Below, in pieces: positions 4,167-17,883 of a stretch of 64,000 bases of DNA (position 1 is its first letter; each line of letters starts with the position of its first letter). The DNA lies in assembly GCF_003268005.1 (NCBI RefSeq), contig NZ_CP014213.1, positions 868,001 to 932,000 of the forward strand. The letters are read 5' to 3'. The position numbers and the translations under genes were made by a program. Below the pieces are notes generated by a model. The model saw only the letters and a program-made list of their open reading frames with translations, was not told the origin of the DNA and did not search any database. The DNA is from Methanosphaera sp. BMS (GTDB lineage Archaea > Methanobacteriota > Methanobacteria > Methanobacteriales > Methanobacteriaceae).

Positions 4167-5378
4167 TTACAGGAAATACTTTTTATCATCATCAATCTTG
4201 AATCTTGGAAATTTAACCTCAGCCATGTAACGATCTATAATCGGTGAAAACATACGAGCTACTTCTAGCGTAACCGTTTCATATTCATTATAGTCATCGG
4301 ATGTTAAAGAAGCCTTTCCATGATTTAATATGGATTTATTACGAATCCTATTTAAACGGGTGAACAATTCAATATTCTTATAATAATAACGACCTATTTT
4401 ATTATTCAATCTATACAATAAGAAATATCCTTCTGTTAAATTTATTTCTATTTCCTTACTTGTAGTTCTGGACCTATGCTGATTTTCTATTTTACTTATA
4501 TACCTACGTTTAATACCCAACTTCGTCAATAGATTAACATCTATGTTGGACTTATTTACCCCATATTTGGTTAATAGTTCCGCATGGGCGATTATGTCCA
4601 TGGTACGATACAATCTCATGACGGCATCATTGTATTTGCCTTCAACATATCTGCGTTTGGCATTGTTAAGCATATCAGCTATCTGATAAGGAAAATGTCG
4701 CTTATCGCTTGGATCGAGTATCTTTTGCAAAGCCCTTTGATTGTTTAGAAATTCCTCCGAGTATTCGGGAAAATCCAAGTTATAACGTCTATTGCTTATA
4801 GATTCATAGTTGAAATTATCCCAATTGGAATAATCAGAGGCCAACTGTCTATATAATTTAATATTGGAATTTTTCATCTTATACGTGTTGTCCAACAGTT
4901 CATTCATTAATTGAAATGAGTTATGATTGAAATAATGTTGAAGCTTTAATAAATCACAATTCTTTTGGCTGTTAGAACGTGACTTATTAATGTCTATTGG
5001 AAATATATTCTTCTGGATTACCTTATTATACCTGTCAGCCATTAGAATTGCCGCCAGATTCATAATGTCAGTTGAAAATGTACAGTCAATGACGACCTCA
5101 TCATTAATATACTCATCAATCTTATATGAAAATCTTCCAAGTACATATTCCAAATCATACAAATGTTCAATATTAATCAAATCGAAATCCAATTTAACAC
5201 CAAAAAAATCATAATACTTATTTTTAATACCTATAATAGTATTATAATGAATTTTATTTGTTAAAAAGACTATTTTATCAATATCCATCATATAGATATA
5301 TATTAACAAGTCGCTCTCAATTTTTTCCTTTTTGTTTGGATTTTCATAATGTAAGGGCAAGAATAGTATTTTTTTCAT
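4167..5378 (-). CDS. CARF-HEPN protein resembling the CRISPR-associated TIGR02710/Csm6-Csx1 group
   Basis: The protein is 403 aa. The N-terminal half looks like a Rossmann-type CARF sensor: a hydrophobic first strand (KKILFLPLHYENPN), a second strand IDKIVFLTN, and VVIDCTFSTDIMNLAA at about residues 95-110, where the family usually has D-x-TGGTK-x-M. The middle (KRRYVEGKYNDAVMRLYRTM, from about 241) matches the A-rich, grYddAvaRLYR region I recall for TIGR02710. The C-terminal HEPN signature is RNKSILNH at about residues 346-353 (R-x6-H), the catalytic motif of HEPN ribonucleases. Known relatives bind cyclic oligoadenylate made by type III CRISPR complexes and then cut RNA. No cas gene or CRISPR array lies in this window, so the protein is an orphan here. 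The TGGTK loop is degenerate, so the ligand may differ. Confidence 0.65.
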   Translation of the reverse strand: MKKILFLPLHYENPNKKEKIESDLLIYIYMMDIDKIVFLTNKIHYNTIIGIKNKYYDFFGVKLDFDLINIEHLYDLEYVLGRFSYKIDEYINDEVVIDCTFSTDIMNLAAILMADRYNKVIQKNIFPIDINKSRSNSQKNCDLLKLQHYFNHNSFQLMNELLDNTYKMKNSNIKLYRQLASDYSNWDNFNYESISNRRYNLDFPEYSEEFLNNQRALQKILDPSDKRHFPYQIADMLNNAKRRYVEGKYNDAVMRLYRTMDIIAHAELLTKYGVNKSNIDVNLLTKLGIKRRYISKIENQHRSRTTSKEIEINLTEGYFLLYRLNNKIGRYYYKNIELFTRLNRIRNKSILNHGKASLTSDDYNEYETVTLEVARMFSPIIDRYMAEVKFPRFKIDDDKKYFL

Positions 5379-5409
5379 AATTTGTACCTATCAACTATTT
5401 AAACTCGAC

Positions 5410-5483
5410 ATTCTCTAATTTTTACTAAGGTATACTTTGTTTTTTAATATATATAATATTATTATTTTATTTCATTAGAGAAT
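5410..5483. repeat. 10-bp perfect inverted repeat flanking a divergent promoter region
   Basis: ATTCTCTAAT at 5410-5419 and its exact reverse complement ATTAGAGAAT at 5474-5483 bracket a TATA-rich core (around 5440-5460) between the divergent CARF-HEPN and SWIM genes. The symmetric placement suggests a shared operator for both promoters; this is inference. Confidence 0.5.
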
Positions 5484-5598
5484 ATTTCATAGACATTCGT
5501 CCCAATTAGAATAATTAATATCAATGAACTATAAAGATAATATATGAAAAAGCAATTGAAAAACGACTTGGCAAATAACATGGAAACGGTGCTAATGT

Positions 5599-7254
5599 AT
5601 GAATTGGGAAAAATTATTTGATGAGGAACGCTTAATCAGAGGTTATGACTATTTTCTAAGGGATAAGGTATTTGATGTTATTATAACCGACAAATACATA
5701 TCATCAAAAGTCGAAGGAAAAAGAAATAACATCTATGAAGTTCAAGTAAACTTTGATAATGATGAAATAAACTCATTATACTGTACCTGTCCATATTCCT
5801 ATTCAAAAACATACTGTAAACATATGGTGGCAACATTATATAAACTGGACGAAATAAATCAGAACAAGAAGGACAACATAAACAAGTCAGATAGCATATT
5901 CCTTTTTAAGGATGTGTTGAAGGATTTGGATGAAAATAAGCTGAAAAAATATTTATATGACAACTACAAGGATAACGAAGAGTTCACGTCAAAATTCATC
6001 AATGAATTCTATTCCAACTTCACATATGAGGATTACCTTGACTATGAGAATATGCTTAACAACATATTTAAAATCGACCTTGTTGAGTTATATAATGAAA
6101 ATGGATTTTATCAGGAGTCCCCCTATCACAGATATTTAATTAACTTCATCAATACAAAGATTGATTCATTATATGACAATGAACATTACAATTATGTATT
6201 GCAGTTAATTTACGGCATTTATGAAAATATTGCGGAAAAAGAGAACATCAGTGAATATCTGAATGTGGATGACATATTAAGTTCCTGCAATTACTACTTG
6301 GAAAAGATTATTGACCTTGATGACATGACACTAAATGTTAGTATCTATGATTATATCCTGTCAAATCTAAAGTATAACTATGATTACAACATCACCCCTA
6401 ATCTAGTCGGGATAGCCGTTGACAAAAACAGCAGCACCAGTTATCTCAAGCAATTGGATGAAGCCATTTGCTCACTGATGAAGCAGGATATTCAAGTCAA
6501 CGAAGATTTATTGCTTTACAGATATAGAATCATGAATAAGCTATCATATCCTATAAATGATCTTAACAAGTTTTTATATGATAACAGACGTTACTACAAG
6601 ATAATGGATTTGCTGATAAATAAGCAAATAGCTAGCAACAATCTGGATACTGCCATATTATTGCTTAATGAAAATCGTGAAATACATGGAAAGCTATACT
6701 CTTTGGAGGATACCAGCACACTGATAGATTTGTACATATTCACCGATAACTACCCGAAAGCGGTAAGTGAAATAAAAAACATAATATTTGAATTTGATAT
6801 TCAGGATATCACCTACATCAACCTCTTAAAGCAGTACCAAAGCAGTGAAGAATGGAAATTATCAATGGAGGAAATAATCAGATACTACAGTGACAATAAT
6901 AATTATAATTTTTTAAACCAGATATATGTCAATGAAGGATTGTATGACAAGTTATATGTTAACATTAGGGACAACTGTTTATTGGATAGCTTTGATGAAT
7001 ACAAAAATTATCTCGATGAAATGTATCATGATGAAATATTATTATTGTATAAGAAAGAAATCTTAGAACAGGCCAAGACTGCTAAATATATAGGTGCCTA
7101 TAATGTAATTGTTAACTACTTGACTACGATGTTGGGCTATACCGGCAGTAAGGATGTCGTGGAGGATACAATAGGAATTCTCAAAAACAAATACAAAAAT
7201 AAGCAAATGCTTATGGAACTATTAAATGATTTTCAGATACAATTAAACAATTAG
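5599..7254 (+). CDS. SWIM zinc-finger protein with helical repeat C-terminal region
   Basis: The protein is 551 aa. Residues about 55-80 contain the SWIM signature CTCPYSYSKTYCKHM (CxC...CxH), a zinc-binding fold that mediates DNA or protein contacts. The following 450 residues are acidic, rich in Asp/Asn/Tyr and predicted helical, with TPR-like spacing (for example around LIDLYIFTDNYPKAVSEIKN), as in other SWIM proteins with long helical tails. The start has GGTGC upstream. It is divergently transcribed from the CARF-HEPN gene across a 220-bp region that carries an inverted repeat. The biological role is unknown; many prokaryotic SWIM proteins are encoded near helicases or defence genes, but no helicase lies here. 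Confidence 0.85.
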   Translation: MNWEKLFDEERLIRGYDYFLRDKVFDVIITDKYISSKVEGKRNNIYEVQVNFDNDEINSLYCTCPYSYSKTYCKHMVATLYKLDEINQNKKDNINKSDSIFLFKDVLKDLDENKLKKYLYDNYKDNEEFTSKFINEFYSNFTYEDYLDYENMLNNIFKIDLVELYNENGFYQESPYHRYLINFINTKIDSLYDNEHYNYVLQLIYGIYENIAEKENISEYLNVDDILSSCNYYLEKIIDLDDMTLNVSIYDYILSNLKYNYDYNITPNLVGIAVDKNSSTSYLKQLDEAICSLMKQDIQVNEDLLLYRYRIMNKLSYPINDLNKFLYDNRRYYKIMDLLINKQIASNNLDTAILLLNENREIHGKLYSLEDTSTLIDLYIFTDNYPKAVSEIKNIIFEFDIQDITYINLLKQYQSSEEWKLSMEEIIRYYSDNNNYNFLNQIYVNEGLYDKLYVNIRDNCLLDSFDEYKNYLDEMYHDEILLLYKKEILEQAKTAKYIGAYNVIVNYLTTMLGYTGSKDVVEDTIGILKNKYKNKQMLMELLNDFQIQLNN

Positions 7255-7377
7255 TATATATAAAACATTAGAAGATAATCATAGATAAATATAATTTAAT
7301 GAATACGATTATGATAAGTTAAAAAATAAGTACGTTAAATATACATCATAAATTATAAAAAATTAATGGATGATTAT

Positions 7378-8106
7378 ATGAATCAAAAAGAAAAAATTTT
7401 CGAAAAACTATACACCTCAATGTGTGATGATGACCCGGAGTATGCCCTGATAATAAAACAATTCATCAATAACCAACTGCTTACTCATATACACCTGACA
7501 GACAAGGAGATAATGCTTGCAGTAATATCAACTATGATAGCAAACCAGTCAACGAAACTCTACAAAGAAATGCTGTCCGATACCTTAAAAATCTTGACGC
7601 CTGTAGAGATTAAAGAGATAATATACCAGTCAACCATATACATAGGACTTGCAAAAAGCTATGAATTCATGGAAATAACAAACGACCACCTTAAAAAAGA
7701 GGGAATCGAGTTGCCACTGGAAAGCCAAAAAACTATAAAGGATGAAGACAGACTGCAGACAGGATATGACCTGCAGGTAAGAAACTTCAGCAAAGAGTTC
7801 ATCGATACAAGCATTGAAACTACCCCCGACAATCAAAAACATGTCTGGGATTTGATATCAAGTTTTGCATATGGAGACTTCTACACACGCGGCGGATTAA
7901 CCGATACCGAAAGGGAACTGATAACATTTGCATTTATACTATCATTAAGGGGATGTGAAAATCAATTGAAGATACATACCATAGGAAACATTAAAATGGG
8001 AAATGACAAAGAAAAGCTGATAGATACGATAACTATACTAATACCGTTTATCGGATTTCCAAGAATGCACAATGCATTAGCAATAATAAATCAGACAGAC
8101 AACTAG
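7378..8106 (+). CDS. Carboxymuconolactone decarboxylase/AhpD-like family protein
   Basis: The protein is 242 aa with two related CMD-type halves: one around residues 40-110 and the second from about 150 on (RGGLTDTERELITFAF, then GCENQLKIHTIGNIKMG and FIGFPRMHNALAI). The second half keeps the family pattern of a cysteine, a histidine a few residues later and the GFP-x2-hN motif. Members are decarboxylases or small alkylhydroperoxidase-like oxidoreductases; CxxC is absent here, so peroxidase activity is doubtful. The start at 7378 is favoured by GGATGAT just upstream, but 7366 is in frame. It is followed after 13 bases by a small gene and is probably co-transcribed with it. Confidence 0.8.
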   Translation: MNQKEKIFEKLYTSMCDDDPEYALIIKQFINNQLLTHIHLTDKEIMLAVISTMIANQSTKLYKEMLSDTLKILTPVEIKEIIYQSTIYIGLAKSYEFMEITNDHLKKEGIELPLESQKTIKDEDRLQTGYDLQVRNFSKEFIDTSIETTPDNQKHVWDLISSFAYGDFYTRGGLTDTERELITFAFILSLRGCENQLKIHTIGNIKMGNDKEKLIDTITILIPFIGFPRMHNALAIINQTDN

Positions 8107-8119
8107 GAAGGTGAAAAAG

Positions 8120-8317
8120 ATGTTATACAAGTACCATGTAGCAATAATTAAAGATGATATGGTAGTATGTGATAAATACTATCAGGAAAATGAAAAACCA
8201 ACCGATGAAACATATCAGAAGCTTAAAAATCAATATGAGGCAGATCAGATATTCCTAAATACAGTTGATGATGACGAACTGGAATCATTTATAAAAGAAG
8301 AAATAAAATTAGAGTAA
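8120..8317 (+). CDS. Small hypothetical protein, 65 aa
   Basis: A short acidic protein beginning MLYKYHVAIIKDDM, with a helical C-terminal half ending in KEEIKLE. The start at 8120 is chosen because AGGTGA lies seven to nine bases upstream. It lies 13 bases after the CMD-family gene and is likely translated from the same mRNA; a T9 tract follows at 8342-8350. No family is recognised. Confidence 0.65.
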   Translation: MLYKYHVAIIKDDMVVCDKYYQENEKPTDETYQKLKNQYEADQIFLNTVDDDELESFIKEEIKLE

Positions 8318-8341
8318 AAAAAAGACTTTTACAATAATCCA

Positions 8342-8350
8342 TTTTTTTTT
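8342..8350 (+). terminator. Oligo-T terminator
   Basis: T9 followed by AG and T8 lies 25 bases after the small gene, between two convergent genes. Confidence 0.5.
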
Positions 8351-8379
8351 AGTTTTTTTTGTATAATCCATGTTGAAGA

Positions 8380-8823
8380 TTAATCATCGGATTTAGAACA
8401 TAATTTAACGTATTCTTCAACATTGACCTCCAATTCATTGAGACTTGTTCTAAAGGCTTCAACAAGACTCTCTTCAACATTGAATTCAGAGTATTTTTCA
8501 AGCAAATCAACATATTGATGCAGTTCATTGAAATTAAAGTCAATTAACTTCCTGGAATTATCAATGTCAAACTTCAATGCATCATTTTCACTAAAGAATT
8601 CATTAATCTCCTCTTCAATACGTTCGATCTCATTTTCACAGAATTGCAGTTCAAATGATAAGTTCTTATTGTCAGGGTCATTGACAAGTTCTTGCCTTAG
8701 TACTACAACCCTCTTGTTTAATTGGGTAACCACATCCATCTTATCAAATATTTCCTTATGCTGCTCGATGTATGCCAATTTATCATACTTAATTACATCA
8801 ATAAGATGTCTTAACTCAAACAT
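8380..8823 (-). CDS. Coiled-coil hypothetical protein, 147 aa
   Basis: The product begins MFELRHLIDVIKYDK and consists of long charged helices with heptad patterns from about residue 30 to 130, including an ELQFCENEIERIEEEINEF segment. No membrane segment or signal peptide is seen. The start at 8823 is selected because GGGAGGTTG lies 6 bases upstream; a longer reading to 8838 would overlap that site. The gene is monocistronic and convergent with the CMD operon. Its role is unknown; a structural or scaffold protein is possible. Confidence 0.7.
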   Translation of the reverse strand: MFELRHLIDVIKYDKLAYIEQHKEIFDKMDVVTQLNKRVVVLRQELVNDPDNKNLSFELQFCENEIERIEEEINEFFSENDALKFDIDNSRKLIDFNFNELHQYVDLLEKYSEFNVEESLVEAFRTSLNELEVNVEEYVKLCSKSDD

Positions 8824-9589: not shown

Positions 9590-12500
9590 TTATACGCTAA
9601 CTCTTTTGAATCCCATTATTAATGCAGACATTAATATTAACATGAATGCGATTAAGTATTTGACTTCATCCATAGTCATCTTCTTAGAGACAATCTTTGG
9701 ACTAACCTCATATACCTTCGCATTGGATGAAGTTAATGTTTGTGTAACACCAACGGTTGATGGAGAACTTTCCTGTGTTGATTCACTTAGTATGTCCTCC
9801 ATTATTGATTCAAGCGTAACAGCTTGGCTTTGAGAAGCACTGGATGAATCAGGAGCAGACGTTGGATTTCCACTATCCGGCGTCAAGTCACCTGCACCGG
9901 TTGATTCATTGGTACGATTTTTAATAGTGGAGTTTTCAACCTCTATTTCCGCCTCGATTGTTGTGTTGGTAATTGTTGTATTATTTACCTCTTGATTATT
10001 GACAGGACTATTTGTGTCAATTTGGGTTTGATTTGTATTATTGAAATTCTGATGATTGTTTGGATCCTCTTCCAATACATCTGTAGTATTGTTTAGCTTA
10101 TCATTGGAGTTTATCGCATCCGTTTGTGTATTGTTTGTGGTTTGATTATCCATGACGCTTTCGTTTATTGTCTGATTTGTAACGATTATCTCTGTTGTCT
10201 GATTTTCTGCAATGCTATTGTTTTGCTGTGTGCTATCCTGGCTTGTATCATTTTTGTCATCGGTGTTATCTTCCTCTGTGCTATTTTCCTCAGAGGTATT
10301 ATTACTGTTATCGGTCGTGTTGGTCTGTGTTGTCGGTTCTTCTATTATAACTTGGGAAGTGTTTTCAGGTATTTGAGTACTGTTGTCGGTAGGAACTGTT
10401 GTATTGGTTTCTATTATGACATCAGTCTGTGATGAATTAGTATTGTCCTCTTGAGTATTGTTTTTTTCTGTTGTATCATTTTTGGAGGTATTGTCATCCG
10501 TAGTGGTGTTCTCGGTTGACTGATTCTGCGTATTGTTGTTTTCGGTCTTATTTGTATCGATTATTTCATCTATTTTATCGATGATAATATCGATTATGCT
10601 TTTATCATCCCCACTTTCCTGATTATCATCAGTGTTAGTACCCGTTGAATTGCTTGGGTTTGTGGTCTGATTATTTGTAGCATTTTGATTTATATTATCA
10701 TCAATTATTGTTTGATTTGTCATATTGGTATCTGTACTTGGATTGCTGTCTGATTGAGTATCAGTGCTTGTCTGATTATTATCTGCGGAGGTGTTGTTTC
10801 CATAATCCGTACTGTTTTCTTTTTGTCCACTTTCAGAATCATTTCTTGCTTGTGTTCCATTTGAATCCTGCTTATGTGTAGCCAGATAAGTATCCAGCTC
10901 ATCATTTGCCACTATCACTCCATCGACATAGGTATGTCCCTTCACGTAGACCAGTTCATTATTCAATGAACTGTATAATGGATTGCCCTCGATGACGTTA
11001 TCGGTAAATACGGATCCATTTACCTTTCTATCACCCATGACATATCGAACATTACCCAGAACATTCATGGTATTTTTTGTAATGAGATTTCTTCTTTCAT
11101 TACGTATGTTTATATTCGTACCGTTATGCGTTTCAAGATAATTGTTGGCGACGTAATTGTCACTACCATCCTTAAGGGATATTGCTGTTGTTTCCGGTTT
11201 TATGTAATCGGCTGAGACACCACTCACATTGGTTTTACCTATGGCTACAATATGATTGTTTGTTATATTTGCTCCTTTACCTATTAATCCGATACCCATT
11301 GGCGTATTACCTTCCACTATTATGGTGTTGTTTTCAATAGTGGTGTATGTACCACCAAATTGTTCTATTCCATATACGTGACTGGAATTACCTCGGATAT
11401 AATTGTTTCTTATTACGTTATATATTGTCACGGAATTTGGTATGTAATATGTATATCCATGATATTCATTCTCAGTGAGAATTATACCGTAGGATACATC
11501 TACCAGTTCCATATCATCTATGGTTTTGTTAGATGTTTGAAGGGAAATAACATTGTTTTCAACTAAATTATATGCATTTTGTCCTTCAAGGGTTATACCG
11601 TTAGCATATCTGATTGATACAACATCGATATTGTTGTAGGATATGTAATTGTAGCTTCCCCTACAGCTTATAGCATAACAGTATAATGTTCCCTGCAGGT
11701 ATAATGTATTGTTTGATACATTGTTGTTATTTCCATAAAGGGATATTCCCCTAATCATACCATATGGTGCTTCATAATAACCTGATTCAATAAGATTTAT
11801 GGAACAGTTGGTTACATTATTATTGTTTCCCATTAGTAAAACTACATTTTCCTTGTTTTCATCACCATAAAACCGCCAGTCCCTATGCTGACTTGGATAT
11901 CTGACATCAAAATTACAGTTAGTAATTGAAGTATTGTTACCTATAACATATATCTGCCTGTATTCCTCTTCGGTAGGTTGATATCTGGCATCTATAAATT
12001 CAACGTTTGAAACACTGTTGTTATTTCCTATAAATACTATCACACGTTCAAATTCACTTTCATCATCACTGACAAATGTCATATTTGAAATGTTGGCATA
12101 ACCTTCTTCATATGCGGTTATATGTGAGTTTTTTAGTGTTGGATTATTAATACCGGTTATAGTAACATTGTTGGCTTCAACAAATAAATCCAATCCTTCA
12201 ATATCTTCAGTTATGTAAACGATTGCATTTTCTTCAAATGAATAATCCATATACTCTTCATAATTGGAATTATCCAGGTAGTATTTGAGTATGTCCATAG
12301 TATTATCATTGGTTGAGTCTACATTCTGGTTATCCTCCGGATAATTACTTGGATTTTCATCATCACCCTGATTTTCATCATCATTTGATGGGTCTATATC
12401 ACTTTTTAAATTCCGATTATATGAGAAAGTATCCATATCTGCCTTGTTGAATGACTCCGATTCAACCTTTGTAGTTAAATCATCCTGATTATTAACCTGA

Positions 12501-12643
12501 TTTTTCAGGAAGTGATCATAATCAATGTCCTTACTAATCGTATCATTTGTTGAGTTTTCTTGAGCCGATACACTTGATAATGTGCTTATAAACAGAATAA
12601 TTAATATTGTTAATATTAACGCCCATTTATGAGCTTTAAACAT
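9590..12643 (-). CDS. Adhesin-like surface protein: beta-helix repeats, long Asn/Thr linker, C-terminal membrane anchor
   Basis: The protein is 1017 aa. Residues 1-27 form a signal peptide ending near SVSA. After an acidic region with NLKS, residues about 120-560 hold parallel beta-helix repeats (NNNSVSN, NNNNVTN, NNYISYNNI and similar) that resemble Methanobacteriaceae adhesin-like proteins. Residues about 590-930 are low complexity, dominated by Asn, Thr, Gln, Ser and Asp with many N-x-T/S sequons, probably a glycosylated stalk crossing the pseudomurein. The C-terminus has one hydrophobic helix (KYLIAFMLILMSALIMGF) followed by KRVSV, a membrane anchor. GGGAGGTG lies before the start. It is expected on the cell surface. 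Confidence 0.85.
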   Translation of the reverse strand: MFKAHKWALILTILIILFISTLSSVSAQENSTNDTISKDIDYDHFLKNQVNNQDDLTTKVESESFNKADMDTFSYNRNLKSDIDPSNDDENQGDDENPSNYPEDNQNVDSTNDNTMDILKYYLDNSNYEEYMDYSFEENAIVYITEDIEGLDLFVEANNVTITGINNPTLKNSHITAYEEGYANISNMTFVSDDESEFERVIVFIGNNNSVSNVEFIDARYQPTEEEYRQIYVIGNNTSITNCNFDVRYPSQHRDWRFYGDENKENVVLLMGNNNNVTNCSINLIESGYYEAPYGMIRGISLYGNNNNVSNNTLYLQGTLYCYAISCRGSYNYISYNNIDVVSIRYANGITLEGQNAYNLVENNVISLQTSNKTIDDMELVDVSYGIILTENEYHGYTYYIPNSVTIYNVIRNNYIRGNSSHVYGIEQFGGTYTTIENNTIIVEGNTPMGIGLIGKGANITNNHIVAIGKTNVSGVSADYIKPETTAISLKDGSDNYVANNYLETHNGTNINIRNERRNLITKNTMNVLGNVRYVMGDRKVNGSVFTDNVIEGNPLYSSLNNELVYVKGHTYVDGVIVANDELDTYLATHKQDSNGTQARNDSESGQKENSTDYGNNTSADNNQTSTDTQSDSNPSTDTNMTNQTIIDDNINQNATNNQTTNPSNSTGTNTDDNQESGDDKSIIDIIIDKIDEIIDTNKTENNNTQNQSTENTTTDDNTSKNDTTEKNNTQEDNTNSSQTDVIIETNTTVPTDNSTQIPENTSQVIIEEPTTQTNTTDNSNNTSEENSTEEDNTDDKNDTSQDSTQQNNSIAENQTTEIIVTNQTINESVMDNQTTNNTQTDAINSNDKLNNTTDVLEEDPNNHQNFNNTNQTQIDTNSPVNNQEVNNTTITNTTIEAEIEVENSTIKNRTNESTGAGDLTPDSGNPTSAPDSSSASQSQAVTLESIMEDILSESTQESSPSTVGVTQTLTSSNAKVYEVSPKIVSKKMTMDEVKYLIAFMLILMSALIMGFKRVSV

Positions 12644-13026: not shown

Positions 13027-13224
13027 TTATTGAAGGCTGTTTTCGGCTTCAACAAAATATTTGTATAACTCCTCATCAGATAAGTCTTTTACTTCATCCA
13101 ATGTGTATTTATCTTTTAATGTTTTGACACATAAAGTTAAAGCATCAATATTATTAAATTCATATAATATTTTAATAAATTCTGATAAGGATAATTCTTT
13201 CTGCGTATTCAATTCACATACCAT
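13027..13224 (-). CDS. Small hypothetical protein, 65 aa
   Basis: This small acidic helical protein starts MVCELNTQKELSLSEF and ends with DEELYKYFVEAENSLQ. The site GTGAT lies 3 bases before the ATG, in the usual spacing for this genome. It is not linked to an operon. No family is recognised. Coding status is supported by the ribosome site and ordinary amino-acid composition. Confidence 0.6.
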   Translation of the reverse strand: MVCELNTQKELSLSEFIKILYEFNNIDALTLCVKTLKDKYTLDEVKDLSDEELYKYFVEAENSLQ

Positions 13225-13336: not shown

Positions 13337-14077
13337 ATGAGAGTTAACATATTAACCAAACAACAAGCAACCAAAAGATTAGAATATGTCCAATCATTAA
13401 ATTATACCGATAAGGAGTATATGAGAAATATGAGAAAGCATATGCTAAAATACAGACAAAATGCCAATGGGTTATTAAACCAAAGCTTTTCAGCCGAACG
13501 GGAACTTGAAATGTTTAAATCATATGGATTTAGAAATATGAAAGATTATACCATTGACATACTGGAACAAAATATCGAATACTGTAACGTACTCGAATGT
13601 GAAAGTCATGACGAACAGATAAATAAAACAATCGAATACCTAAACAATTGCAATAACCGTGATTACCTGATTAGATTAAAGCCATTCAGCAGAAAAAATG
13701 AAAAAACATGGTTTATCCCTGCAGATAGACTGGTAAATTGGATTGATTCTTTCATGATTCAAAGGGAAGTATTCTTCAACTATTCAACCAATGAAAAGGA
13801 ATACCTATCAGCCATAGGTTACTTTAAAAACAATGTTCTTATGATGACTGTTGAAACAGATAATGATGAGAAAAACTACGATACTGATATCAATCAGATA
13901 ATGAATGTTTTTGATGAGTTGGTAAATGGAATAATCGATATATTAAGAGACTTGCCTGAAGATAGAAATATTGAAAACCTATTTACAATCAGTGATGAGA
14001 AAATTAAAAGCAACATCGAAGAGGTACAAAAACTATCAATGGATTATATAGAATTCATTAAAAAAGAGTTAGATTAA
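13337..14077 (+). CDS. Hypothetical protein, 246 aa
   Basis: A soluble, charged protein without a signal or membrane segment. The N-terminal third is helical and basic (RNMRKHMLKYRQ), the middle has beta character (YLIRLKPFSRKNEKTWFIPAD), and the C-terminal part is acidic and helical. AGAGGTAATC precedes the ATG. Its 3' end overlaps by 9 bases the end of the convergent radical SAM gene. No family is recognised; cysteines are few and not arranged in a metal motif. Confidence 0.7.
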   Translation: MRVNILTKQQATKRLEYVQSLNYTDKEYMRNMRKHMLKYRQNANGLLNQSFSAERELEMFKSYGFRNMKDYTIDILEQNIEYCNVLECESHDEQINKTIEYLNNCNNRDYLIRLKPFSRKNEKTWFIPADRLVNWIDSFMIQREVFFNYSTNEKEYLSAIGYFKNNVLMMTVETDNDEKNYDTDINQIMNVFDELVNGIIDILRDLPEDRNIENLFTISDEKIKSNIEEVQKLSMDYIEFIKKELD

Positions 14078-14671
14078 ATTGGAATCATTGAATAATTCCA
14101 ATATTTTATCATTATCGGCCATACCATTAACGATTATCTTACCATCCTTATTTAACCTTATTTCTATCTTATTTTTTTTATTGTTTAAATCAAAATCCTT
14201 ATAGATATCGGATAAAAAGATTATTTCCTGATTGGATGAACCAACCCATAACCTATCAGTACATCTTTTTTCATAGATAAACTTACCGGATACTAGAATA
14301 TCACAAAGATTTAATAGGTTATTCCAGTCGGCACAATTGACCGATTTAATTAGATTATATTCATAACCCGTAAATATGACAATTGACAGTTTATCCTTAA
14401 GCATTTTGGCCAGTTGATACAATGCCCTTGATTGAAGAAGTGGTTCTCCACCGGAGAAGGTAACACCCTCTATATCAGGATTAGACAGGATGTCCTCTGC
14501 CAATTGTTTTACATCATATTCATTTCCAGAATCCAAGTCCCATGTCTGTGGAGAGTTACACTTGTAACAATGCTTAAGACATCCCTGTACAAAGATACAT
14601 GTCCGGTTTCCGGGTCCTTCAACTTTTGAATTGTCTATTATTTCATTAACATATAACTTCAATGCAATCAC
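14069..14671 (-). CDS. Small radical SAM protein, NrdG/activase-like
   Basis: The protein is 200 aa. Cysteines C31, C35 and C38 in CLKHCYKC form the CxxxCxxC motif that binds the 4Fe-4S cluster reducing S-adenosylmethionine. GNRTCIFVQGC just before and FSGGEPLLQS at about residue 75 are typical of small glycyl-radical activases such as NrdG. No ribonucleotide reductase or other glycyl-radical enzyme is nearby; the gene is the last of an operon with a Ycf46-like AAA ATPase, a Ycf35-like protein and DUF2997. It therefore probably serves that system, as activase or as a modifying enzyme. The start is GTG at 14671; a TTG at 14662 with GTGAT upstream is an alternative. Confidence 0.85.
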   Translation of the reverse strand: MIALKLYVNEIIDNSKVEGPGNRTCIFVQGCLKHCYKCNSPQTWDLDSGNEYDVKQLAEDILSNPDIEGVTFSGGEPLLQSRALYQLAKMLKDKLSIVIFTGYEYNLIKSVNCADWNNLLNLCDILVSGKFIYEKRCTDRLWVGSSNQEIIFLSDIYKDFDLNNKKNKIEIRLNKDGKIIVNGMADNDKILELFNDSNLI

Positions 14672-14688
14672 TAAAAAAGGGGGGATTT

Positions 14689-16368
14689 TTAGAAGTCCAG
14701 AGTTCTTCCACCTCTGGATTCATTAATGTCGGATGAATCAGGAATATTTGGAGGAGTATTATTATCCGGTTTATCAGGTTTTTGGTTGTCTTCTTCACTT
14801 TGTTTATATTCACGCCTATCCTCTTGTGCGGTAGCTGCCACTGCACGTACATCAGCCCATTTACGTATTGACATAATCTGTTCAGACATTGTAACGCTAA
14901 GTGGTACCGTGTTGCGGACGGCATTTTCAAAGTCTGCCATAGTTATGCTACGGTCTTCGGCAAATGCATCAAACAGTCCCATTATAACTATCTGTTCCAG
15001 TTCGGCTCCACCAAATCCTTCCGTTATACTGGCCAGGTGATTTAATGATTCGTCATTGATGGTAAAGTTTCCTATTACATCAGGCTGTTTGAGTCTTGAG
15101 GTTAAATGTACCTTGAAGATTTGCTTTCTTTCATTGAAGGTAGGCAGGTCTATGAAGAATATCTCATCAAACCTTCCCTTTCTCATCATCTCTGACGGTA
15201 GTGTTGAGATGTTGTTTGCCGTTGCAACTACAAATACGGGTTTTGTTTTTTCCTGCATCCAACTTAGGAATGTACCGAAGATACGGCTGCTTGTACCACT
15301 GTCGCCACTATTTCCCAGTCCGGAGAATCCCTTTTCAATCTCGTCAATCCATAGTATGCATGGACTTATGGCTTCGGCTGTCTTTATTGCCTCCCTCATG
15401 TTTGATTCACTGTTACCCACATACATGTTAAATACCTTGGATACGTCAAATCTTAGAAGTGGCAAATGCCACATTGAACTGATTGACTTTGCCACAAGAC
15501 TCTTACCACAGCCGGGTACTCCCGTTAAAAGCACCCCCTTAGGTGATGGGAGGCCATATCGTTTAGCCGAGTCTAGCCAGGACTTGTCCCTTTTGATTAG
15601 CCATTTCTTTAAATTTTCCAATCCTCCGACGTCATTGATGTTTACTTCGGAGTCTATGTATTCAAGCAGGTCATTCTTTTTGATTACCTGACTTTTTTCC
15701 TTTAGAACAAGATCCACGTCATTGACATCCAGCCTATTGTTATCAACCATTGCTCGTGCAAATGCATTTTCTGCTTCCTGTAATGTTAGACCTACCGCTG
15801 CTTTTACAAGTGATTCCTTTTCCTTATCATTCAATTCAACGACTAGATTGTTTCCACTGTTGGCGGATATCATTGCATCCAAGAGTTGGGATATTTCCTC
15901 CTGTGTCGGAAGTCCAAAGTCCATGACGGTTACGTCCTTTTTCAAATCATCAGGTATTGTAAACGTTGGGGATACGAATATTATGTTTTTTGGCTGCATA
16001 CTCTGTTTCAAATTTGGCATGATATCCTTCAATACCCTGACAACGTTATTGTCTATGACGCCGCTGGATTTTTCACAGAAGACGTGGAAGTCCAGCAGTA
16101 TGAATATTGCAGGCTGTTCATATTCACGGATGAAATTGAGAGCTGCCAGCTTTTCAAAGGTGTTTTCTTCAATTAGACCGTCCTGATTTCTAAAACCTTC
16201 CGATGATTTCCATATGAATACGTTTCTAACCGTGTGAATCAGTTCAGGGGTTGTTACTATTCTTTTTAATTCGTTAATTAAACGTTCTTCTTCATATGTT
16301 GTAATGTTTATGTATGGAAATCTTGCCCGTAATAAGTCGCATAATTCTTTTTCAAACTTTGTCATCAT
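14689..16368 (-). CDS. Ycf46-like AAA+ ATPase
   Basis: The protein is 559 aa. The N-terminal ~230 residues start with LRARFPYINITTYEEERL, a motif I associate with Ycf46, the plastid/cyanobacterial AAA protein. The AAA module begins at DVGGLENLKKWL and has Walker A GVPGCGKS at about 283-290, Walker B CILWIDEIEKGF at about 337-348, and a GNSESNMREA pore/second helix region. The spacing and the GLPSPKGVLLTG run fit Ycf46 closely. The tail after residue 510 is Pro/Asn/Asp-rich and probably disordered. The start is 16368 or 16365, preceded by GTGAT. It is the third gene of the operon, 17 bases before the radical SAM gene. The molecular role of Ycf46 is not established. Confidence 0.85.
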   Translation of the reverse strand: MMTKFEKELCDLLRARFPYINITTYEEERLINELKRIVTTPELIHTVRNVFIWKSSEGFRNQDGLIEENTFEKLAALNFIREYEQPAIFILLDFHVFCEKSSGVIDNNVVRVLKDIMPNLKQSMQPKNIIFVSPTFTIPDDLKKDVTVMDFGLPTQEEISQLLDAMISANSGNNLVVELNDKEKESLVKAAVGLTLQEAENAFARAMVDNNRLDVNDVDLVLKEKSQVIKKNDLLEYIDSEVNINDVGGLENLKKWLIKRDKSWLDSAKRYGLPSPKGVLLTGVPGCGKSLVAKSISSMWHLPLLRFDVSKVFNMYVGNSESNMREAIKTAEAISPCILWIDEIEKGFSGLGNSGDSGTSSRIFGTFLSWMQEKTKPVFVVATANNISTLPSEMMRKGRFDEIFFIDLPTFNERKQIFKVHLTSRLKQPDVIGNFTINDESLNHLASITEGFGGAELEQIVIMGLFDAFAEDRSITMADFENAVRNTVPLSVTMSEQIMSIRKWADVRAVAATAQEDRREYKQSEEDNQKPDKPDNNTPPNIPDSSDINESRGGRTLDF

Positions 16369-16581
16369 AATCACTTGTATATTAATATTTTAAATTATGT
16401 CATAAAAAGTATATAAATATAATAACAATTTACGAAAAAAAGAATATTTAATGCTTTATGATTCAACCAGACTACTTTTTAGGTTATATCTGATTTTTAA
16501 ATAATTATAATGGCCTTATCTATTAAAAATGTGTTTATGCTGAGTTATGTATATGTAAAAAGAGAAGGAGGGATTTGATAA

Positions 16582-17340
16582 TTAGTTCACGTTCAATGTC
16601 AGTACAATGGAGTCATTGGCATCTATCACTTCTGATTCAAGGCTGTAATTCTTTTGGTGGATTTTTTCCAATACCTTTTCATATGTTATTTCCTGGATTT
16701 TATTGGCATATTCATAGCTTAAGTTTTCAACGAATTCTTCTGCCTCGCTGTTTTCATAATCTCCAAGAAATACCACGTCATATGTATCATCATCCGCCTT
16801 GTTTAATACTATAAGTCCCCTATTCTTAAAGTCATCTATTTCTTTTTTGCTGTTGTATCCCAAATAGCTGGTATCCATTATTGATTCGATGACTGCCTTA
16901 TTTTTCATATTGGTTGATATCTTAAGTGTCTTTAGCTCTACCTTTTTTGCTACTTCCTCTTCGAAGCTTTCAACATCGTATGGTATTTGCTCATATAGAT
17001 ACATTTGATTTGTTTGTGTAAGATATTCCTTGGTGAGATTGTTTATGAACATTATGGTGTCATTTTTTGGATAGTTGCCAAAGAATACTATTGACAAGCC
17101 ATCAGTGTTGTTTTCGTAGTAAAAAATCATCTGTCCCTGATTTCTGAAGTTTATAAGATTTCTTTTGTTTTTAAATCCTAGGAGTTTGTCTTGAAGAATT
17201 GATTCAACCAGATTCATATCGGTCATTTGCGTATGTACCTTGAAGTCCACACCCCTGGAATCTCTTGAAAGGTCGTTTATGGATATCGCCTTGTCTATTC
17301 TATCCATATCCAGTGATACTGTTTTTAGATGTATACTCAT
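16582..17340 (-). CDS. Ycf35/DUF1257-like protein with internal duplication
   Basis: The protein is 252 aa and consists of two similar halves. Residues about 30-135 (VESILQDKLLGF, then FRNQGQMIFYY, VFFGNYPKND, NNLTKEYL) align by eye with residues about 137-250 (IESIMDTSYLGY, FKNRGLIVLNK, VFLGDYENSE, ENLSYEYA). The second half ends in a strand (NDSIVLTLNV) like the conserved end of DUF1257/Ycf35. Assignment rests on this weak pattern plus context: DUF2997 immediately upstream and a Ycf46-like ATPase downstream, the combination I recall from cyanobacteria and plastids. AGGTGA precedes the ATG. A 213-bp gap separates it from the ATPase gene. Confidence 0.6.
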   Translation of the reverse strand: MSIHLKTVSLDMDRIDKAISINDLSRDSRGVDFKVHTQMTDMNLVESILQDKLLGFKNKRNLINFRNQGQMIFYYENNTDGLSIVFFGNYPKNDTIMFINNLTKEYLTQTNQMYLYEQIPYDVESFEEEVAKKVELKTLKISTNMKNKAVIESIMDTSYLGYNSKKEIDDFKNRGLIVLNKADDDTYDVVFLGDYENSEAEEFVENLSYEYANKIQEITYEKVLEKIHQKNYSLESEVIDANDSIVLTLNVN

Positions 17341-17348
17341 ATTTTCAC

Positions 17349-17558
17349 CTAGTAGTTTTTCTGTTTTTTTGCCTGGGTTAGGACTTCTTCATCAGCTTGC
17401 TGATTGTATTCGGGAGTATATTCGATGTTTACGGCCTTGGAATTGGTTAGTTCCTCGATAATCTTGATGTAATCCTCACACTTTTTACCTTTTATTCCCT
17501 TTGTCTGAGCATCTATAGTACCGTCTTTTTTAATTGTTATGATTAGTTTCTTTGACAT
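17349..17558 (-). CDS. DUF2997 family small protein
   Basis: The protein is 69 aa. The sequence KKLIITIKKDGTIDAQTKG, then IKGKKCEDYIKIIEEL and a final EYN fits DUF2997: a beta-hairpin carrying DG, a G-x-x-G-x-x-C turn, then a helix. It is the first gene of the four-gene operon and ends 8 bases before the Ycf35-like gene. GTGAAA lies before the ATG. In cyanobacteria DUF2997 genes lie beside ycf35. The function is unknown. Confidence 0.75.
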   Translation of the reverse strand: MSKKLIITIKKDGTIDAQTKGIKGKKCEDYIKIIEELTNSKAVNIEYTPEYNQQADEEVLTQAKKQKNY

Positions 17559-17883
17559 AGCATTTCACTAATATTATCTATTATTCTCTTAATATAAAAA
17601 GTATATATCCAATTTAATTATTAGGACAGTATTGTTTGATAATATTTTCTTAGAATAAACTAATGGAGGAAGATGATTGTTTTTATTATTTGACATTACT
17701 ATGTGAATTAGTTATCGTGAAGGTTTAGTGGATTGGAATAGGTGTGCTGTTGGAACGGATAATTCTTTTACGTGAAAAAATAGACAAGATAAATTCAGAT
17801 TAAATTAATTGATTAATAAAAATAGCTTGAATGAGTAATGTGATAAATTTTTCATAAAAAAAGAGTAAATTAAGAGAAGATAT
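17559..17883. other. 325-bp intergenic region upstream of the Ycf46 operon
   Basis: This contains the promoter of the DUF2997-led operon and the 3' flank of the histone gene. I see no open frame, strong repeat or structured RNA. Confidence 0.4.

Follow-up and report, generated by a model that had tools for sequence, protein, structure and literature searches.

The ATPase of a four-gene cluster from Methanosphaera sp. BMS ends in a short C-terminal peptide that recurs at the ends of its mostly membrane-anchored helix-hairpin-helix (HHH) partners, which suggests an undescribed tag-and-machine system. The cluster lies in the 64,000-nt stretch that was analysed (the window), part of a single-contig genome of 2.87 Mb (G000). 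A preliminary description of the window reported the four genes but overlooked the main feature, the C-terminal tag, and with it the HHH partners encoded elsewhere. Judged from sequence, the ATPase comprises a degenerate and an active AAA domain, a floating linker and then the peptide, and its partners end alike. We lean towards a p97/Cdc48-like ATPase machine that acts on or with these partners through the peptide R-x-[LIV]-D-[FLIVY]-COOH. Such a shared tag gives direct access to the question of which proteins cooperate, and it points to a machine that is independent of photosynthesis and operates in gut archaea and bacteria, on plasmids and in viruses. To our knowledge, there is no agreed function for Ycf46, Ycf35/DUF1257 and DUF2997, which are conserved genes, the former two also in plastids.

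All four minus-strand genes that had been claimed at 14069-17558 are present as open reading frames (ORFs) with these coordinates. The features of the cluster, its surroundings and the two unlinked genes are as follows (window coordinates unless G000 is given).
17349..17558, minus strand: DUF2997 protein, 69 aa (Pfam PF11211, 2.1e-14; Cys27 in G21-x-x-G24-x-x-C27)
16582..17340, minus strand: duplicated protein of the DUF1257/Ycf35 superfamily, 252 aa (hhalign, AlphaFold2 repeats, cluster of viral relatives)
14689..16374, minus strand: Ycf46-type AAA ATPase, 561 aa (Pfam AAA 4.7e-33, conserved catalytic residues, model alignment)
14716..14814, minus strand: variable, disordered linker of the ATPase, residues 521-553 (low pLDDT, 34% mean identity)
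14692..14715, minus strand: C-terminal tag RGGRTLDF of the ATPase (stop codon 14689-14691 directly after)
14069..14671, minus strand: NrdG-like radical SAM (rSAM) enzyme, 200 aa, CX3CX2C at residues 31-38 (Fer4_12, TIGR02491)
13337..14077, plus strand: 246-aa protein of no known family (no match in Pfam, NCBIfam or PHROG)
13027..13224, minus strand: 65-aa protein (similar small ORFs, MVCEINYE..., adjoin the ATPase in other Methanosphaera)
G000:178947-179774: HHH membrane protein ending in ...TQRRIDL, tagged, unlinked
G000:645903-646991: HHH membrane protein ending in ...SGRRLDL, tagged, unlinked

Both the rSAM and the ATPase ORF start with GTG as listed; for the ATPase, an alternative ATG 2-3 codons inside is possible. 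From DUF2997 to rSAM, the intergenic gaps are 8, 207 and 17 nt, and archaeal TATA-like boxes were spotted by eye near 17601-17608 and 16409-16417. Given these gap sizes and boxes, the arrangement suggests two transcription units (DUF2997 with the 252-aa gene, ATPase with rSAM) rather than one operon. Genes like that of the 246-aa protein follow the ATPase in G118, G119, G120, G130 and at the third ATPase copy of G121, judged by position and visible similarity. The 246-aa gene is thus probably outside the system and indicates where the ATPase gene was located ancestrally; the 65-aa gene belongs to the same synteny block and is probably outside the system as well. Farther along, window positions 9590-12643 encode a surface-type protein of 1017 aa that is rich in Asn and Thr over long stretches; the equivalent place in locus L019 holds a close relative.

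The assignment of the ATPase as Ycf46-like was correct, i.e., Pfam AAA matches with 4.7e-33, the WIDEIEKG Walker B and the active-site residues are present and similarity extends over the full length. Cyanobacterial AAA proteins are 43-45% identical to it over about residues 7-516. The first AAA domain (about residues 1-235) is degenerate and without Walker A, while the second (about residues 243-515) is active; Walker A/B and the sensor and arginine residues (N387, R398/R401) are invariant or nearly so among 54 ATPase relatives. Structural alignment of the AlphaFold2 monomer model with p97/Rix7/Drg1 extends along both AAA domains. Based on the conserved residues and these model alignments, the protein is predicted to be a double-AAA protein with a degenerate first domain, i.e., a putative p97/Cdc48-like machine whose two AAA domains are modelled ones. 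From residue 521 on, block-mean pLDDT values drop to 35-55. No docking of the tag was seen in the monomer model, where the tail is disordered, so the model does not indicate a receptor.

The tag itself is a five-residue tail, R-x-[LIV]-D-[hydrophobic]-COOH, following the variable disordered linker (RGGRTLDF in the window). Over 112 proteins, its consensus reads [GE]-R-x-[LIV]-[D, rarely E]-[FLIVYW]-COOH. We counted it on 45/53 AAA proteins of the system and on 60/62 HHH proteins in system loci, most of which are membrane-anchored, versus 6/448 other proteins of the same loci and 0/832 proteins of comparison loci. Since the last eight residues had been left out in training the HHH model, the HHH count is not circular; only matches covering the HHH end were counted, as the membrane region alone hits many unrelated membrane proteins. 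Among the six other tagged proteins, four are membrane-protein-like (one with an Mrr nuclease domain) and two have zinc-ribbon-like N-termini; they look like additional partners. Many viral and cyanobacterial AAA proteins are without the exact tag, which is therefore not essential to the AAA family.

A scan of the window genome for R-x-Phi-D-[FL] gave 25 matches compared with 32 in a reversed control. Nineteen of the 25 are stop-ended, from which ORF reading left three credible genes, two short ORFs being spurious. These three are the window ATPase and two unlinked membrane-anchored HHH proteins; near the window cluster itself, there is no HHH partner. Thus, partners predicted by homology to other loci do carry the tag. 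The scan together with the locus counts rules out a chance origin of the tag. Genome-wide tag searches used a DNA pattern that covers some codon and residue variants only; in 14 bacterial genomes, all in-frame tags among the pattern matches read were located on an AAA, HHH or membrane partner.

The neighbourhood survey bears out recurrent linkage with this rSAM family. All four genes co-occur in 44/54 related loci from archaea, bacteria and viral contigs, in 43 of the 44 on one strand, with shuffled order and within about 3-5 kb, and 40/44 also contain a tagged partner. Linkage of this extent is far beyond chance. Related loci were taken from one scan of a viral (33 loci) and one of a genome collection (80 loci); they are the best-scoring relatives from part of the public collections rather than a random sample, and E-values of our home-made searches refer to small sets. 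Four-gene loci are found in Firmicutes, Gastranaerophilales, Actinobacteria, Armatimonadota, Bacteroidota, a Sebaldella bin and one viral contig (L021; 51% identity). Plasmids carry relatives as well (71 records, of which 26 are conjugative); the annotated order there is AAA, hypothetical, DUF2997, helix-hairpin-helix, 4Fe-4S single cluster.

Individual loci show further variation. In L076 (305-5347), seven consecutive tagged HHH proteins are followed by the rSAM gene, i.e., an expanded partner array. Spirochaete loci (L102:1775-8416, L113:567-7730 and L289, the Treponema succinifaciens plasmid pTRESU01) hold a related AAA and rSAM inside a contractile injection system cluster with sheath, gp19-like tube, CIS_tube and base V components; L102 and L113 include DUF2997, and the AAA has a similar acidic-hydrophobic tail. 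On the AAA-encoding viral contigs L022, L024 and L049, inspection by eye showed a gene resembling ParB upstream, one for a RecA/KaiC-like ATPase downstream and a third, of 90-100 aa, between DUF2997 and rSAM.

Within the Methanobacteriaceae, the system separates into two layers. The ATPase is encoded in 12/20 Methanosphaera genomes and in G047 of another genus, i.e., in 13/130 genomes of the family. DUF2997, the duplicated DUF1257 protein and rSAM share an identical genome set (6/20 Methanosphaera plus G047). Six genomes (G118, G119, G120, G125, G128, G130) encode the tagged ATPase without these three genes. For five of the six a tagged HHH protein was found, G119 being the exception, and overall 12/13 ATPase-positive genomes have one. 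Few HHH matches were obtained in ATPase-negative genomes, and the one that was read (G112) is an untagged, different protein. In the G124 locus, no tagged ORF was seen. In one Methanosphaera genome, three ATPase copies were observed, each tagged (G121, L015 and L016; L272); two of the G121 copies are about 15 kb apart with HHH genes alongside.

We compared the seven ATPase loci that are without the three genes, namely those of the six genomes and the third copy of G121, which has the three genes elsewhere. Here, identity is 84% for the core and 34% for the linker, while it reaches 96% for the tag, such that the tag is kept without rSAM. Since the ATPase persists without the three genes, rSAM goes with DUF1257/DUF2997 and the ATPase is independent of rSAM. 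The ATPase-driven modification step proposed in the preliminary description is a conjecture. DUF1257, DUF2997 and rSAM form a co-inherited module beside the ATPase, which in the best reading is a dispensable one of a radical or redox kind.

Concerning the small proteins of this module, the 69-aa protein is a DUF2997 member as described (PF11211, 53.5 bits vs. a gathering score of 24.1, E 2.1e-14) and carries one Cys in G-x-x-G-x-x-C that is invariant in 64/64 aligned relatives. Its PDB match to Crov588 spans just 31 residues; a similarity to the selenoprotein TsoC was discarded as too weak (13.2 bits vs. a cut-off of 45). The 252-aa protein has no match to Pfam DUF1257 (PF06868) above the gathering score. 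When its family (49 sequences) is aligned profile-to-profile with hhalign, a DUF1257 profile built solely from cyanobacterial, planctomycete and viral proteins plus L116 is matched with a probability of 97.7 (E 1.4e-12), and with 69.7% for the seven methanogen sequences alone. Among viral relatives, a Pfam-positive DUF1257 falls into the same cluster as the 252-aa protein. Its AlphaFold2 model (mean pLDDT 86.7) shows two repeats of beta-alpha-alpha-beta-beta-alpha order. The description as a duplicated DUF1257/Ycf35-like protein thus holds at the superfamily level only, via the profile-profile match and the two modelled repeats. A fold search with the model in PDB and BFVD returned no match at E <= 0.001, KH tandems being top but weak, and no DUF1257 chain was found in PDB by sequence.

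How might such a machine work? The peptide would serve as a docking signal through which partners and ATPase assemble on one and the same receptor, either the ATPase ring or another protein, and the ring would then remodel these partners at the membrane. We give less weight to the idea that DUF1257 and DUF2997 act as an adaptor whose invariant Cys is served by an iron-sulphur protein, i.e., the NrdG-like rSAM here and the ferredoxin Fed7 in cyanobacteria. The place of rSAM beside DUF1257/DUF2997, which is that of Fed7 in cyanobacteria, speaks for a putative iron-sulphur partner of the DUF2997 Cys. By a radical or redox reaction, rSAM may tune the machine, whose core role would not need it. HHH domains are usually DNA-binding, and the partners may therefore act on DNA rather than as clients.

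The role of rSAM is where readings differ most. Its description as a small NrdG-like enzyme is supported by Fer4_12 (4.6e-34) and by TIGR02491 as best NCBIfam match, and its relatives (58 aligned) retain GGEP and the three cysteines of CX3CX2C, the cluster motif of the radical SAM superfamily, in 100% of cases. It could thus be a plain NrdD activase whose position next to the ATPase is incidental, and one relative (L066) does pass the NrdG cut-off (130.8 vs. 126.1). The window enzyme, in contrast, scores 115.1 bits and thus below it, the genome encodes a separate NrdG2 (TIGR02495, 168.7 vs. 131.15), NrdD is found in 19/20 Methanosphaera genomes compared with 6/20 for rSAM, i.e., also in rSAM-less ones, and the linkage recurs across phyla. 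We therefore reject this assignment as highly improbable. Four ATPase-negative Methanosphaera genomes (G112, G113, G114, G115) encode an additional NrdD-like protein that is shorter (about 600 aa) and absent from the other genomes of the genus. A different proposal takes the tag as the substrate, such that rSAM abstracts hydrogen from the tag Asp and leaves a permanent modification on ATPase and partners. Activases of the NrdG/PflA type act on a Gly that lies close to the C-terminus in a loop of the form R-x-x-G-[YF], which R-x-Phi-D-[FLY] resembles with Asp for Gly; the NrdD of the window genome has RITGY near its C-terminus, the closest relatives of rSAM are NrdG and pyruvate formate-lyase activase, and most bacterial loci contain both tag and rSAM. 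The likeness covers five residues, however, and the six rSAM-less ATPase-positive Methanosphaera keep the ATPase tag intact (at the identities given above) as well as the HHH tags. This weakens the tag as an obligate rSAM substrate and makes its modification unlikely. A wider version, in which the peptide marks membrane and HHH partners of the p97-like ATPase and rSAM with DUF1257/DUF2997 modifies either the tag or the DUF2997 Cys and thereby controls the machine in archaea, bacteria and viruses, is a tentative possibility to which we give somewhat less than even credence. Should rSAM modify a protein here, this would add a new class to the known radical modifications of proteins.

The genes could also constitute a system against mobile elements or for other biological conflicts, in which the ATPase gates tagged effectors at the membrane, namely DNA-binding proteins and nucleases. 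The patchy distribution within the family fits this idea, as do the relatives on plasmids and viral contigs. Furthermore, two tagged proteins are encoded beside the system in a Gastranaerophilales locus (L071), one of them a membrane protein that has an Mrr restriction endonuclease domain (7809-8549; 3.4e-21) and the other a TPR-like protein of 926 aa (5015-7795). Yet the PADLOC system sets gave no defence-system match, only generic AAA (IetA) and rSAM (pVip) similarity; there is a single nuclease among the tagged partners, and adaptors would equally show variable partners. Overall, we consider a conflict role rather doubtful. Far less credible still is a function in photosynthesis or CO2 use. 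It draws on the lower EcaB activity after inactivation of Ycf46 (slr0374) in Synechocystis, as cited in PMC7496141. The hosts are methanogens, Gastranaerophilales, Firmicutes and other non-phototrophs, and the phenotype in cyanobacteria more likely reflects one use to which an older machine has been put.

The favoured p97-like machine shares parts with several known systems. No literature report on the gene combination was found in a search that hardly covered preprints and subscription papers. Compared to p97/Cdc48, Drg1 and Rix7, i.e., double-AAA unfoldases, the modelled window ATPase aligns along both AAA domains with intact catalytic residues; it differs by the missing Walker A in its first domain and by its C-terminal tail, and Npl4/Ufd1-type cofactors as known for p97/Cdc48 were not seen for the window system. 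With NrdG and pyruvate formate-lyase activase, the window rSAM has CX3CX2C, GGEP and a GSSNQ near the end in common (42-44 bits against PFL-AE structures), but its partners are DUF1257/DUF2997 instead of a glycyl radical enzyme and it remains below the NrdG cut-off. The tagged HHH proteins are built like ComEA-type proteins with N-terminal membrane segments, a linker and a C-terminal HHH_3 domain; in contrast to ComEA, they have several membrane segments and the tag, and score 27.5 bits against the comEA model vs. a cut-off of 152.

The closest counterpart is found in cyanobacteria and plastids, whose Ycf46 belongs to the same AAA family (about 44% identity) and where the DUF1257 and DUF2997 families are shared. 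The preliminary description had taken the first three genes for the cyanobacterial set. A ycf46 gene beside a DUF1257 gene was indeed observed, while DUF2997 was not found in the cyanobacterial loci fetched; rather, duf2997-ycf35-fed7 forms a cluster separate from ycf46, in which Fed7, a 4Fe-4S ferredoxin neighbouring DUF1257 and DUF2997, takes the place of rSAM (PMC4284462). Cyanobacterial ycf46 loci (L110:5587-5934 and relatives) have a small gene upstream in common, the product of which (MQ.KQKVTLYLP...) contains a CPxC motif. Neither the ycf46 nor the duf2997-ycf35-fed7 loci show rSAM or tagged HHH partners. Cyanobacterial Ycf46 also has an acidic-hydrophobic end (QRMEF, QRLEF), which, unlike that of the window ATPase, has no long disordered linker ahead of it.
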